In this document: piece by piece, positions 32,911 to 45,794 of the stretch | Layout: every line of letters begins with the position of its first letter | Numbering within the stretch: position 1 is the first letter of the stretch | Source of the DNA: Natronosalvus vescus | GTDB lineage: Archaea > Halobacteriota > Halobacteria > Halobacteriales > Natrialbaceae | DNA: 64,000 nt | Direction: 5' to 3' | Assembly (NCBI RefSeq): GCF_023973145.1 | Contig: NZ_CP099546.1 | Coordinates: 868,001 to 932,000, forward strand | The notes under the pieces: generated by a model | What the model saw: the letters and a program-made list of their open reading frames with translations, nothing else | What the model was told of the DNA's origin: nothing | Database searches by the model: none | Translations under genes and position numbers: made by a program

Positions 32911-33354
32911 ATGCGCTCATTCGATTCGCTCTCGCGACGGACGATGATGGCCCTCGCCGGGACTGGCGTGACTGTGGCAGTTGCGGGCTGTGTCGGAAAC
33001 GGGGACGACGGTGACAGCGGGGATCCGGAGGAGTGGGAGGATGTCTCCGAAATCGAACTCGACGGGCAGGTCGAACAGTGGACGGGCGTCTCACCCGATC
33101 CGATCGACGGCGTCGAGAACCCGACGCTCGTGTTGTTCGACGGGAACGAGTACGAACTCACCTGGTACAACCAGGACGGGCAAGAACACAACATCGCATT
33201 CGTCGACGACGGTGGCGACATCGTCGTCGACACCGAGTGGACGGACGACGACGAGCAGTCGCTCACGTTCGAAGCGACCGAGGAGATGGTCGAGTATCAC
33301 TGTGAACCCCATCAGACGTCGATGGTCGGCGACGTCGAGGTACACACGGGCTGA
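32911..33354 (+). CDS. Tat-exported lipoprotein cupredoxin (paralogue)
   Basis: A 147-residue blue-copper-like protein. The export signal has SRRTMMALAG and a lipobox with Cys27 (AVAGC). The copper ligands are the His of QEHNIAF, and the Cys, His and Met of YHCEPHQTSM. It closely parallels the protein at 390-860 in domain order and in sequence (ENPTLVLF, EYELTWYN, LTFEATEEMVE). Another ATG at 32905 is also possible. It is followed 127 bp downstream by an unrelated acidic lipoprotein on the same strand. Confidence 0.85.
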   Translation: MRSFDSLSRRTMMALAGTGVTVAVAGCVGNGDDGDSGDPEEWEDVSEIELDGQVEQWTGVSPDPIDGVENPTLVLFDGNEYELTWYNQDGQEHNIAFVDDGGDIVVDTEWTDDDEQSLTFEATEEMVEYHCEPHQTSMVGDVEVHTG

Positions 33355-33481
33355 TGTGGACTATCGTTAGGCGTTACTGAATCACACCGACGGCCACGAG
33401 GGGACTCGTATACCGGTTTCTCGAGGGTAACCTGCACGTGCAAGTCGTCACTCTATTTGACCGTCCATCAAACGAGGAGGT

Positions 33482-33772
33482 ATGGTTCCCAAACCGGCGT
33501 ATTCGCGACGACGAGTACTTGGATTGACGGGAGTGACACTGACAGCGCTCATTGCGGGTTGTGGCGGCCCCGGTGAAGAAGAAGGCGCTGACGATCCGGC
33601 AGAGGATCCAATCGATGAGGAAGAGCCGGCGGAAGAGGAAGAAGAGGAGGAAGAAGAGGAGGAAGAGCCGGCGGAAGAGGAAGAAGAGGAGGAAGAGCCG
33701 GCGGAAGAGGAAGAAGAGGAGGAAGATCCGGCGGAAGAAGAGGAAGAAGAGGAGGACGAGGAGGACGCATAA
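33482..33772 (+). CDS. Polyglutamate-repeat Tat lipoprotein
   Basis: A 96-residue protein. The first 27 residues form a Tat signal with a lipobox (YSRRRVLGLTG ... IAGC, Cys27), the same length and layout as both cupredoxin lipoproteins. The mature protein is almost only Glu, Asp, Ala and Pro: four blocks of P-A-E then a run of Glu, in near-identical 30-bp DNA units (33660-33735). With no other domain, it probably forms a highly charged tether on the cell surface, perhaps binding cations. The repeat length may vary by slippage. Function unknown. Confidence 0.75.
   Translation: MVPKPAYSRRRVLGLTGVTLTALIAGCGGPGEEEGADDPAEDPIDEEEPAEEEEEEEEEEEEPAEEEEEEEEPAEEEEEEEDPAEEEEEEEDEEDA
33600..33745 (+). 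repeat. Tandem PAE(E)n repeat coding DNA
   Basis: Four imperfect 30-42-bp units beginning GCCGGCGGAAGAGGAAGAAG encode the Glu-rich repeats. They are in frame with the lipoprotein and made of GAA/GAG triplets. Confidence 0.7.
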
Positions 33773-34192
33773 GCCACCGCGGCTCACACTCACAATCGAT
33801 CCAACTGACCGAATAGCTGTTTCTACACGCATCGAGCGATGCGCACACCGTTGTGTCCTTCCCGGTCAATTACTTGATGCTCGAGGCATTGGAACCTCAA
33901 CTCGTACCAGTACCGCCTGTGCGTAAACTACCGAGCAGCTTGGCCGCTGCGCTGAACGGGATCAGCCCCTGGATGTGGTGCGATCCCTGCTCGAGTTTCA
34001 CTCTTCGGCCCCATCAGGGTCTCCTGTCCATCTGGGTCTCCAGCTGACTCGGCCAAAATTTATCACGTTATGGACTAACATGCCAAATTACCATTGTGTG
34101 GTGTGGTACCAACCATCTGTGAATATTGGGGTTTCAGACCTCGAAACGTCCGGATAGCAACATAGATATACCTCCGAGCCATTCGAACGATA
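33773..34192. other. Intergenic region, 420 bp
   Basis: Lower in GC toward 34060-34170 and without a credible frame. An AT-rich box (CATAGATATA, 34161-34170) lies 23-32 nt before the DMT transporter ATG and is the likely TATA element. No RNA gene or clear repeat is seen. Confidence 0.5.
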
Positions 34193-35218
34193 ATGACTGG
34201 AAGAAGAGATATCTTGCTCTTTGGCGGGCTGGCACTCGTCTGGGGCACCTCGTTTGCAGCGATCGAGGTCGGACTGGCAACCTTGCCGCCGATCCTCTTC
34301 GCTGCGCTCCGTTTCGACGTCGCGGCCCTCCTGTTTGCCGTCGCGGTCGCCCTTACCGGTGCATCCTGGCGGCCGCAAACTCGAGCGGACTGGCTGTTGA
34401 TCGCCGTCGGCGGTGGCCTCCTGATCGGTGCCCACTTCGCCCTGCTCTTTCTCGGGCAGTCGTACGTCTCGAGTGGGGTTGCCGCGGTCGTCCTGAGTTT
34501 GACGCCGATCGTGACGCCGCCACTGGCACTCGCGTTACTCCCGCAGGCGCGAATCCGGCCGCCAGCCGTTCTCGGCATTCTCCTCGGGCTGGTCGGCGTC
34601 ACCGTGATCGCCATCGGCGGCGGCTCGCTCGACGGCCAGGCAGCCGGCGTCGCCCTCCTCTTCGGGTCGGCAATCGTGTTCGCGCTCGGCTCGGTGTTGA
34701 CCGAACGGACGAACGGCACGCTCCCCATCGTCTCCTTGCAGGCCTGGGCGATGGGGCTCGGAGCCGTCGTCCTTCACACGCTGAGTGGACTCCACCCCGC
34801 GGAGACGATAACGGGTCTCGAGATCAACTTCGCTGCACTTGCCGCCCTGGCGTACCTCGCTATCGTGGCGACGGGCGGGGGCTTTTTCGCCTACTTCGTA
34901 TTGCTCGAGCGCATCGGTTCGACGGAACTCAGCCTCGTCAACTATGCCGTCCCCGTGGTCGCCGCCGTGGTCGGGTGGCTGGCGCTGGGCGAGTCGATTA
35001 CCATTGGCACTCTCGCTGGGTTCACACTGATCCTGCTCGGATTCGCGCTGTGTAAACTCGGTGCCCTCTGGCAGACGGCCGCTCCTGCGGTGGGCTATGG
35101 CCCGTACCGGCCAAGCGACCCCGATGGCGTCGTCGTTGGCGGCAACGTCTACGTGACGACCGAGGACGAACGACGGCACGGAACGGGGGTTCGAGGAAAC
35201 GTCGTCGCCGCGGATTGA
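34193..35218 (+). CDS. DMT superfamily (EamA) transporter
   Basis: A 341-residue membrane protein with ten membrane segments in two EamA domains. The first spans about residues 10-140 (LLFGGLALVWGTSFAAIEVG, VLSLTPIVTPPLALALL) and the second about 150-285 (ALGSVLTERTNGTLPIVSLQAW, NYAVPVVAAVVGWLALGESIT). This is the drug/metabolite efflux fold, and the substrate is unknown. The hydrophilic C-terminal 55 residues are unusual for the family. It stands alone. Confidence 0.88.
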   Translation: MTGRRDILLFGGLALVWGTSFAAIEVGLATLPPILFAALRFDVAALLFAVAVALTGASWRPQTRADWLLIAVGGGLLIGAHFALLFLGQSYVSSGVAAVVLSLTPIVTPPLALALLPQARIRPPAVLGILLGLVGVTVIAIGGGSLDGQAAGVALLFGSAIVFALGSVLTERTNGTLPIVSLQAWAMGLGAVVLHTLSGLHPAETITGLEINFAALAALAYLAIVATGGGFFAYFVLLERIGSTELSLVNYAVPVVAAVVGWLALGESITIGTLAGFTLILLGFALCKLGALWQTAAPAVGYGPYRPSDPDGVVVGGNVYVTTEDERRHGTGVRGNVVAAD

Positions 35219-44147: not shown

Positions 44148-45794
44148 ATGGTTTCACGACCGCACAAGCTTAGCGTCATATTCGTTGCCCTGGTAGTCGC
44201 CCTCGCTGGCGGCCCTGCACTGGCGGGTGCAGCGGCGGGCACAAGTGCGAACGATGACACTGAGTTCGGAGACGTGAGCGTAACGATTGAAAATGTACAG
44301 GTCGAGTCCCTCGAACTCGAAAACGTCACACTCGAGAACGTGACGATTGAGGAGCTCAACGTCGAAGAGCTGAACATCGAAGACGATGAGCTCGAGGATG
44401 AACTCGACGAAGACGACACCGATGACGACGAGAACGGTGTCGACACCGACGATGATGAGAACGGCGTCGATACGGACGATGACGACAATGGCGTCGACAC
44501 CGACGATGACGACAATGGCGTCGACACCGACGATGACGACAATGGCGTCGACACCGACGATGACGACAATGGCGTTGGTGACGACGACAATGGCGTTGAC
44601 ACCGACGATGACGAGAACGGCGTCGACGAGCACGAAGACGAGGTAACCATCTCCGACATCGAGATCGAGTCACTCGAACTCGAGAACGTCACCATCGACG
44701 ACATCAGCTTCGAAGAAGACGAGATGGACGAGAACGGCGTTGGCACCGACGATGACGAGAACGGCGTCGACACCGACGATGACGAGAACGGCGTCGACAC
44801 CGACGACGACAATGGCGTTGGTGACGACGACGAGAACGGCGTTGACACCGACGATGATGAGAACGGCGTCGACACCGATGACGACGAGATGGACGATGAC
44901 GAACACGACGTCATCGACGAGGATGCTGACGAAGTCGTCATCGAGAACGTCACCATCGAAGAGATGAACGTCGATCGACTCACGATCGAAGAGCTGGAAA
45001 TCGAGGACGATGACGGTATCCTCGACCGAATCACCGGCTTCTTCAATGGTCTGTTCGGTGACGACGAAGAGGAAGAAGATGACAACGGTGTCACCGACGA
45101 CGATGAGAACGACGTCGACACCGATGATGACGAGATGGACGATGACGAGAACGGCGTCGACACCGACGATGACGAGATGGACGATGACGAGAACGGCGTC
45201 GACACCGACGATGACAACGATGTCACTGACGACGACGAGATGGACGACGATACTGAAACCCAGGAGATTGAAGAACTCACCATCGAAACCTTCGACATCG
45301 AAGAGTTGACCATCGAGTCGATGACCATCGAGTCACTCGAGAGCGCTGAAGACGACGAGATGGATGACGACGAGATGGATGACGACGACGGCGCCGACAC
45401 GGACACAGACGATACTGAAACCGACGATGACGAGAACGGCGTCGACACCGACGATGACGACAATGGCGTTGGTGACGACGACGACAATGGCGTTGACACC
45501 GAAGACGACGAAAACGGCGTCGACACCGACGATGACGACAACGGCGTCACTGACGACGACGAGATGGACGAGATGGACAACGGTGAGACCATCGAGTACA
45601 TCTCAGCTGGCGAGATGACCGTCGAGGACGGAACCGCTGAAACCGTCACCCTCGGTGATGCGAGCGAACTCGAGGAAGAACTCGACGATGACGACGAGGA
45701 AGACGACGATACCACCGACGACGAAAACGACACGACTGATGACGACACCACCGACGACGAAGACGATCAGGCCTCCCTGCCGTTCCTCGGCTAA
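44148..45794 (+). CDS. Secreted acidic protein alternating pentad beta repeats and DxDxNG calcium-type repeats
   Basis: A 548-residue protein with a Sec signal (LSVIFVALVVALAGGPALAGA). Two module types alternate. The first type has strands with five-residue periodicity, such as VTIEN VQVES LELEN VTLEN VTIEE LNVEE LNIED. It recurs at about residues 42-80, 166-195, 265-290, 368-398 and 480-505. Between them lie blocks of a nine-residue unit DDD(D/E)NGVDT, with 22 NGV copies in total, each containing a DxDx(N)G calcium-loop pattern as in thrombospondin type-3 repeats. The pentads resemble pentapeptide-repeat beta helices. The protein ends DDQASLPFLG with no anchor. Binding of calcium and a surface or matrix role are inferences. 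No known family name is given. Confidence 0.8.
   Translation: MVSRPHKLSVIFVALVVALAGGPALAGAAAGTSANDDTEFGDVSVTIENVQVESLELENVTLENVTIEELNVEELNIEDDELEDELDEDDTDDDENGVDTDDDENGVDTDDDDNGVDTDDDDNGVDTDDDDNGVDTDDDDNGVGDDDNGVDTDDDENGVDEHEDEVTISDIEIESLELENVTIDDISFEEDEMDENGVGTDDDENGVDTDDDENGVDTDDDNGVGDDDENGVDTDDDENGVDTDDDEMDDDEHDVIDEDADEVVIENVTIEEMNVDRLTIEELEIEDDDGILDRITGFFNGLFGDDEEEEDDNGVTDDDENDVDTDDDEMDDDENGVDTDDDEMDDDENGVDTDDDNDVTDDDEMDDDTETQEIEELTIETFDIEELTIESMTIESLESAEDDEMDDDEMDDDDGADTDTDDTETDDDENGVDTDDDDNGVGDDDDNGVDTEDDENGVDTDDDDNGVTDDDEMDEMDNGETIEYISAGEMTVEDGTAETVTLGDASELEEELDDDDEEDDDTTDDENDTTDDDTTDDEDDQASLPFLG
44412..44640 (+). repeat. 27-bp tandem repeats coding DDD(D/E)NGVDT units
   Basis: Direct repeats of a 27-bp unit (GACACCGACGATGACGACAA type) give eight nearly identical copies here. 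Similar blocks occur at 44742-44880, 45080-45240 and 45430-45560. They stay in frame throughout. Confidence 0.8.

Follow-up and report, generated by a model that had tools for sequence, protein, structure and literature searches.

A gene at 33482-33772 on the forward strand of the window (the whole 64,000-nucleotide stretch of Natronosalvus vescus DNA analyzed here, from a genome that is one contig of 3.84 Mb) encodes a polyanionic repeat lipoprotein of 96 amino acids. Judging from sequence comparisons, its product may be a lipid-anchored, probably unstructured polyanionic bristle standing between the membrane and the S-layer and served by its own promoter, a reading on which our confidence and our doubt are about evenly balanced. 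In relatives of this gene the repeat is rewritten, yet anchor, negative charge and gene switch are all retained, which probably indicates a charged surface bristle rather than a folded enzyme.

The open reading frame, its coordinates and its stop codon all proved correct. Residues 1-27 of the predicted protein constitute a Tat-type lipoprotein signal, SRRRVLGLTGVTLTALIAGC (SRRRVLG...LIAGC), in which both the arginines at positions 9-11 and the lipobox L-I-A-G-C27 are found, in agreement with the first-pass annotation, which had proposed a protein tethered by a lipobox cysteine. In an alignment of 8 orthologues the signal peptide (33482-33559, forward strand) comprises the RRRVLG motif and a hydrophobic stretch that runs up to the lipobox Cys27, whose codon (33560-33562, forward strand) is invariant in all 8 and marks the predicted site of lipid attachment. 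The mature chain, counted from Cys27, has 70 residues, of which 43 are Glu (61%; the chain is Glu-rich as had been claimed, but the earlier figure of about 65% was too high) and 7 are Asp, so that 71% of it is acidic, and it has neither Lys nor Arg. It begins with CGGPGEEEGADD and PAEDPIDEEE and continues with the four PAE blocks that had been recognized previously, PAE occurring five times in all and opening a long Glu block in four of these cases. No Pfam or NCBIfam family reached its cut-off for the window protein and the 8 orthologues in the tables shown, which for 7 of the 8 orthologues give only the best E-value per family. AlphaFold, run on the single sequence with no alignment, placed helices at residues 47-79 and 83-95 (mean pLDDT 66.5, pTM 0.32), and as these lie over the Glu blocks the model would allow poly-Glu to be a helical rod. 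We give these helices little weight because no alignment was used and because a helix would be disfavored in the relatives, whose arrays are rich in Asp, Gly and Asn; it is unlikely that the NETD and DDM forms described below share such a rod. An antisense ORF of 152 aa (33374-33832) was set aside as reflecting no more than the coding strand opposite; the antisense reading is quite different in the NETD species.

One clear best relative was found per genome in 8 of 8 Natronosalvus genomes. The mature chains of these 8 orthologues are 49-93 residues long, which corresponds to 18-33 nm when stretched at 0.36 nm per residue, and their net charge ranges from -32 to -51. Together they amount to 557 residues, which include 342 Asp or Glu and not a single Lys, Arg, His, Phe, Trp or Tyr, and the lipobox Cys is the sole cysteine of each. 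The lack of Lys and Arg in the 325 residues of 5 clade representatives has a chance of 2.7e-9 at a Lys/Arg background of 5.9%, taken from five neighbor proteins. As the other species have Asp-rich or Asn-Glu-Thr repeats, what is kept is the net charge, the exclusion of Lys, Arg and aromatic residues, and the anchor motif; the original description hence stands with regard to acidic repeats, but not with regard to poly-Glu as such. The alignment has 14 invariant columns, of which 12 fall in the stretch spanning signal, lipobox and CGGP (R9, R10, R11, L13, G14, G17, A25, G26, C27, G28, G29 and P30, each invariant in 8 of 8). Across the N-terminal codons of the window gene pN is lower than pS: over 22 such codons pN is 0.15-0.27 between clades, versus a pS of 0.29-0.73, and it is zero inside both clades having several members. 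This low pN relative to pS points to selection at the level of the protein.

The array of the window gene consists of four units on the forward strand, the first of which (33626-33667) encodes PA followed by 12 Glu and is a 30-bp unit with a 12-bp internal duplication, whereas the second (33668-33697) encodes PAEEEEEEEE, the third (33698-33727) PAEEEEEEED and the fourth (33728-33769) the diverged PAEEEEEEEDEEDA. With the 12-bp internal duplication omitted, unit 1 shows no differences from unit 2, while unit 3 differs from unit 2 at 1 of 30 nucleotides and unit 4 at 5 of 30; near-identical 30-bp units, as reported earlier, are therefore three in number and do not include the fourth. TRF recovered overlapping arrays over the repeat region, with periods from 9 to 42. 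The unit changes within this array are of 12 or 30 bp and in frame, so that the length of the protein would vary and not an on/off state. Glu codons in the gene are mixed (22 GAA to 21 GAG, as against 28 to 91 in five neighbor genes; Fisher P 0.002), which may be a limit on slippage or the mark of the founding unit. Purine runs of 24-37 occur in the array DNA; a DNA-level role of this purine-rich tract was rejected, the arrays of other species being written with GAC, AAC and ACC codons.

Comparison of one genome per species revealed clade-specific repeats, namely PAEEEEEEEE in the window genome (G000), PEDEEEE in G001 and G004, EEMED in G006, DDM(D/E)D in G007, and NETD(V/I)GDD with EEED or NETDD in G002, G003 and G005. 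G001 has 6 units of the PEDEEEE type versus 4 in G004, and four 39-bp units in G005 compare with two 54-bp units in G002 and mixed NETD units in G003, the species so compared having MFS-gene DNA that is 92.7-93.8% identical. The first-pass annotation had anticipated an array that changes length, and between species unit number or length indeed differs at about 93% identity of the MFS-gene DNA. Variable columns over all arrays number 2, 0 and 27 (of 62 each) at codon positions 1, 2 and 3, and in 84 of 90 comparisons between units a third-position change in a GAN codon still gives Glu or Asp, counts in which the collection of units by peptide pattern favors a third-position excess; in G000, G001 and G004 the pattern units make up approximately the whole array, and there we take the effect as real. 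In the PEDEEEE pair units differ by 2.7 and 2.5 of 18 nucleotides within species and by 2.75 between them, and in part of the NETD set the differences within species are likewise about equal to those between species, so that recent homogenization is clear only in some species, such as G005 with its four identical units. General concerted evolution was rejected, being unsupported in the G001/G004 pair and mixed in the NETD species.

We regard it as unlikely that diversifying selection drives these changes and that the protein is a variable surface decoy or self-marker, acting against haloviruses or in cell recognition. Such selection would account for a presumably exposed repeat that is replaced while anchor and promoter are retained, and for the Asn-X-Thr sequons of some species, but the unit peptide is nearly constant in a genome and the charge is alike across species, as neutral turnover under a charge constraint explains. 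A further count, weak either way, is that 32 viral-contig stretches fit the single peptide pattern used and yielded 0 relatives.

In three species Asn-Glu-Thr sequons stand where the others have Glu runs. N-X-S/T sequons number 7 in G003, 11 in G005 and 11 in G002, against 0 in the reversed reading, and the window protein and four other orthologues have 0; the acidic fraction of the sequon forms is 0.50-0.56, versus 0.65-0.72 in the other forms. The oligosaccharyltransferase AglB (TIGR04154) scored above its cut-off in 6 of the 8 genus genomes, G000 among them; in G006 it is a fragment at a contig end, and it was not found in G007, a genome that is 66% complete. A report on Haloferax volcanii describes AglB-dependent N-glycans on lipobox proteins and a tetrasaccharide that includes uronic acids (PMC8241124). 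By analogy with these glycans, the sequon repeats of Natronosalvus could hold their charge in sugars and not in side chains, and we infer that the sequon forms may be glycosylated.

The S-layer of Haloferax volcanii, as described in another report, encloses a pseudo-periplasmic space and has Ca or Mg at its interfaces (PMC8640222). The latter observation, together with the 32-51 net negative charges per chain, would suit a specific role in ion handling, with the protein as a low-affinity store of Ca/Mg (or Na) that supplies an S-layer lattice in need of divalent cations. We consider such a role improbable: no family with an ion-binding motif was matched, the acidic fraction drops in the sequon forms, and binding would be weak in molar salt. 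Of the two functions named in the first-pass annotation, that of a surface spacer fits the data, whereas that of a cation buffer, though conceivable, has gained no specific support.

Within the genus the gene occupies a recurrent neighborhood (locus A), with an MFS gene 0.2-3.6 kb upstream in 7 of 8 genomes and a gene for an EamA-family transporter (34193-35218 in the window, forward strand) downstream in 6 of 8; on the short piece of G007 the sole shared neighbor is eIF1A. A gene for a halocyanin-like lipoprotein (32911-33354, forward strand; Pfam Copper-bind) lies 127 bp upstream of the lipoprotein gene in the window and is not a constant partner. It stands between the MFS and lipoprotein genes in 4 of the 8 genomes, additional ORFs also intervening in G001 and G004, and is missing at L033, L034 and L036 (from G002, G003 and G005), which represent one clade of the genus. 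Scanning genomes with the MFS protein recovered this lipoprotein gene from Natronosalvus hydrolyticus AArc-curdl1 (L071) as well as from a Natrialbaceae MAG that is a member of the genus (L098). Locus A was not found outside the genus, the filter having kept only L071, L098 and L104 from among 52 MFS-anchored loci of the family, some of which end early, and L104 being a halocyanin with an acidic tail. This halocyanin-like lipoprotein (L104:4110-4928) has a long C-terminal (ENGADD)n tail, and acidic repeats can hence follow the copper domain and not only precede it.

With a profile built from the 8 orthologues, acidic lipoproteins of the stand-alone kind were retrieved from other genera of the family together with some longer, halocyanin-like proteins, the profile matching 27 of 125 family genomes at 1e-12 (the genus counted) and 48 of 392 genomes of the order at 1e-10, 46 of the latter being from the same family. 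The same architecture, for which a search in other haloarchaea had been suggested, thus exists there, mostly inside this family. We designate a second set of such proteins group B, a grouping made in this analysis without Pfam or NCBIfam runs; its profile has matches in 79 of the 125 genomes, spread over 20 of 29 genera, and these too are mixed with longer proteins. With the Met nearest the twin Arg taken as the start, 28 of 29 group B loci read encode a stand-alone protein of 73-120 aa, G106 having given no protein. They have in common with the window protein the signal, the CGGPG start (AGCGGPG), an acidic or NET-repeat tail and the lack of a domain, and upstream of their genes, as of the window gene, lie a GCA-NN-TG box near -48 and TTAT near -29. 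Unlike the window protein, many of them have EEGTGNGQ[DE]; TGNGQ is present in 15 of 25 stand-alone group B-like proteins (L022 and 24 members of a separate set of 28 loci, from which the halocyanin-like L054 and L139 were left out, as were L057 and L063 for being nearly identical to L055) and in 0 of 8 locus A orthologues. The split between sequon and acidic forms recurs here: in the loci read, genus g16 has repeats of the NET/NES type that bear 5-16 sequons, and other genera have acidic tails that are mostly sequon-free. The 25 proteins contain 186 sequons versus 44 in the reversed reading, counts drawn from related sequences and hence from non-independent events.

In 6 of the 7 loci read outside the window genome, the group B lipoprotein gene has a PadR gene nearby. 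In the Natronosalvus genomes such a lipoprotein was found at 0 of 8 PadR loci (about 4 kb around PadR in seven genomes and a 4.6-kb piece in the eighth), while the same scan recovered it from all 6 group B stretches and from both locus A stretches used as controls; in the window genome the best PadR match lies at G000:C1:665394 and the window gene at 901482. Positional orthology between locus A and the PadR locus is accordingly unsupported. The window genome also encodes a TGNGQ paralogue (L123:5288-5554; G000:C1:2576302) whose gene lacks the -48 box and adjoins genes that, from their N-termini, may encode Mrp antiporter subunits. A further acidic protein is encoded in the window at 44148-45794 (forward strand), a secreted-type product of 548 aa with 48% Asp+Glu, no Pfam match and blocks such as VTIENVQVESLELENVTLENVTIEELNVEELNIED that are separated by many repeats of DTDDDENGV and DDDEMDDD. 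Similar to it are proteins whose genes lie near the group B lipoprotein gene in other genera (29-44% identity, E 4e-41 to 3e-13 with the low-complexity filter off; with the filter on there were no matches at 1e-10).

The upstream region of the window gene contains a putative promoter, in which a conserved palindrome-like box, ACCTGCACGTGCAAGTC (33430-33446, forward strand; core GCACGTG at 33434-33440, starting at -48 from the ATG), is followed by a TATA-like element, TCTATTT (33452-33458, forward strand; about -30 to -24 from the ATG). This element is A/T-rich and aligned in the 8 orthologues, and its position is compatible with a leaderless transcript. Of 13 invariant columns in the upstream alignment of the orthologues 10 fall between -51 and -30, and the core, GCA-NN-TG, starts at -48 in 7 of the 8 and at -47 in the remaining one. 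Of the 25 group B-like genes 20 also have it, at -47 to -50, and it is present in 8 of 12 further group B genes kept out of its discovery (the four misses being three cases of GCG-NN-TG and one of GCA-NN-CG), these 12 coming largely from genera already sampled and hence not being independent lineages. It is missing from L004, the TGNGQ-bearing paralogue of the window genome, as well as from L022 and L049. Among control genes the core occurs at -50 to -47 in 1 of 676 and anywhere in 60 nucleotides in 32 of 676, these controls being products of a crude gene caller that used the first start codon, with related loci included and about 3 that are possibly genes of locus A or B read in a longer frame; it was found at that place in 0 of 84 longer Tat-lipoprotein-like ORFs. 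The 17-base pattern has one exact copy in the window genome, and with up to one mismatch ACCNGCANNTGCARGTC was found there at 2 places versus 14 for a reversed control, the second place preceding a protein with a weak TAT_signal match and having no evident TATA. The 17-base box of group B, sought in 9 genomes, gave one place, at the lipoprotein gene, in each of the 6 genomes with group B, and its other occurrences did not exceed those of the control. As the longer forms of the box do not exceed their controls, no wider regulon was found at that stringency.

A box shared in its position and an N-terminus in common suggest one family that comprises locus A and group B. We put forward tentatively, and with a good deal more doubt than belief, that this is a co-regulated family of lipid-anchored polyelectrolyte bristles, in which a conserved promoter core would accompany a rewritten chain whose charge comes interchangeably from Glu/Asp or from N-glycans on Asn-Glu-Thr repeats, Natronosalvus and one or more other genera having made the swap independently of each other. 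Against the bristle reading, the conserved promoter box hints at a regulated and perhaps specific duty, for which a passive bristle would have no need.

It is very unlikely that the gene is a relic, in which a longer lipoprotein (a halocyanin, for example) would have lost its domain and been reduced to the signal and an acidic linker, with repeats drifting without function. Such an origin would agree with the similar acidic stretch behind the lipobox of the halocyanin-like L002 of the window genome and with the halocyanin gene just upstream, but all 8 orthologues are domain-free, have invariant signal residues and show pN below pS, no halocyanin remnant was found downstream of the stop (best E 1.5), the promoter core is conserved, and a second stand-alone group in other genera has the same box. 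The two lipoproteins are encoded on the same strand, with the halocyanin immediately upstream in 4 of 8 genus genomes, but we give scant credence to a role as its partner or metal feeder (a docking tail or cation store), as the gene lies within 0.2 kb of the MFS gene with no halocyanin in G002, G003 and G005, none was found on the 7.7-kb piece of G007, the mature chains have no His and only the lipobox Cys, the lipoprotein gene has its own promoter box, and the second group stands beside a PadR gene in most loci read.

Returning to the polyanionic bristle, we infer that the gene would be expressed and its product exported, probably by the Tat pathway, with the lipid on Cys27 anchoring the chain at the outer face of the membrane. 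The mature chain, presumably disordered in the cell and carrying about 50 negative charges, would then be a single bristle in a layer of polyelectrolyte that fills the gap separating membrane from S-layer. There its charge could retain counter-ions and water, and its length (about 25 nm when stretched) could set a soft spacing. Selection would act on the charge, on the exclusion of Lys, Arg and aromatic residues, on the anchor and on the promoter; the repeat sequence itself would be unselected, so that its units would be free to be duplicated, lost or replaced. In some species Asn-Glu-Thr sequons, which could bear N-glycans instead, would have replaced part of the acidic chain.

Characterized haloarchaeal Tat lipoproteins generally have a folded domain, whereas in the window protein the entire mature part is an acidic repeat chain. 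The twin-arginine signal, hydrophobic stretch and lipobox Cys are common to the window protein and haloarchaeal Tat lipoproteins (PMC2945643), the latter treated in a report in whose main text we did not find the terms acidic, repeat, low complexity, disordered or linker. Halocyanin-like lipoproteins (PF00127) have the same type of signal and a similar Asp/Glu-rich stretch after the Cys, as in L002, but their copper-binding domain (PF00127) has no match in the window protein or the 8 orthologues. Some haloarchaea produce polymers of poly-gamma-glutamate, a polyanion outside the cell; both this polymer and the window protein are extracellular-type polyglutamates, the latter being a gene-coded peptide with Pro-Ala breaks. 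Halomucin of Haloquadratum is also of the secreted type and has been proposed to protect the cell (PMC4378361), but it has 9159 aa as against a chain of 70 residues. In the open-access literature, judged by title or the start of the abstract among the matches listed for a few terms, no description of such a lipoprotein family was found. By its motifs the window protein is a Tat lipoprotein of a known kind, and its novelty lies in the stand-alone, domain-free, charge-conserved repeat chain with a promoter box of its own. If the bristle reading is true, it would be a natural surface polymer selected for charge and length and not for sequence, its Glu, Asp and sequon variants in different species would offer a ready test set for polyanions at a membrane in saturated brine, and a low-complexity ORF that is easily overlooked would stand for a conserved gene family with a recognizable promoter.
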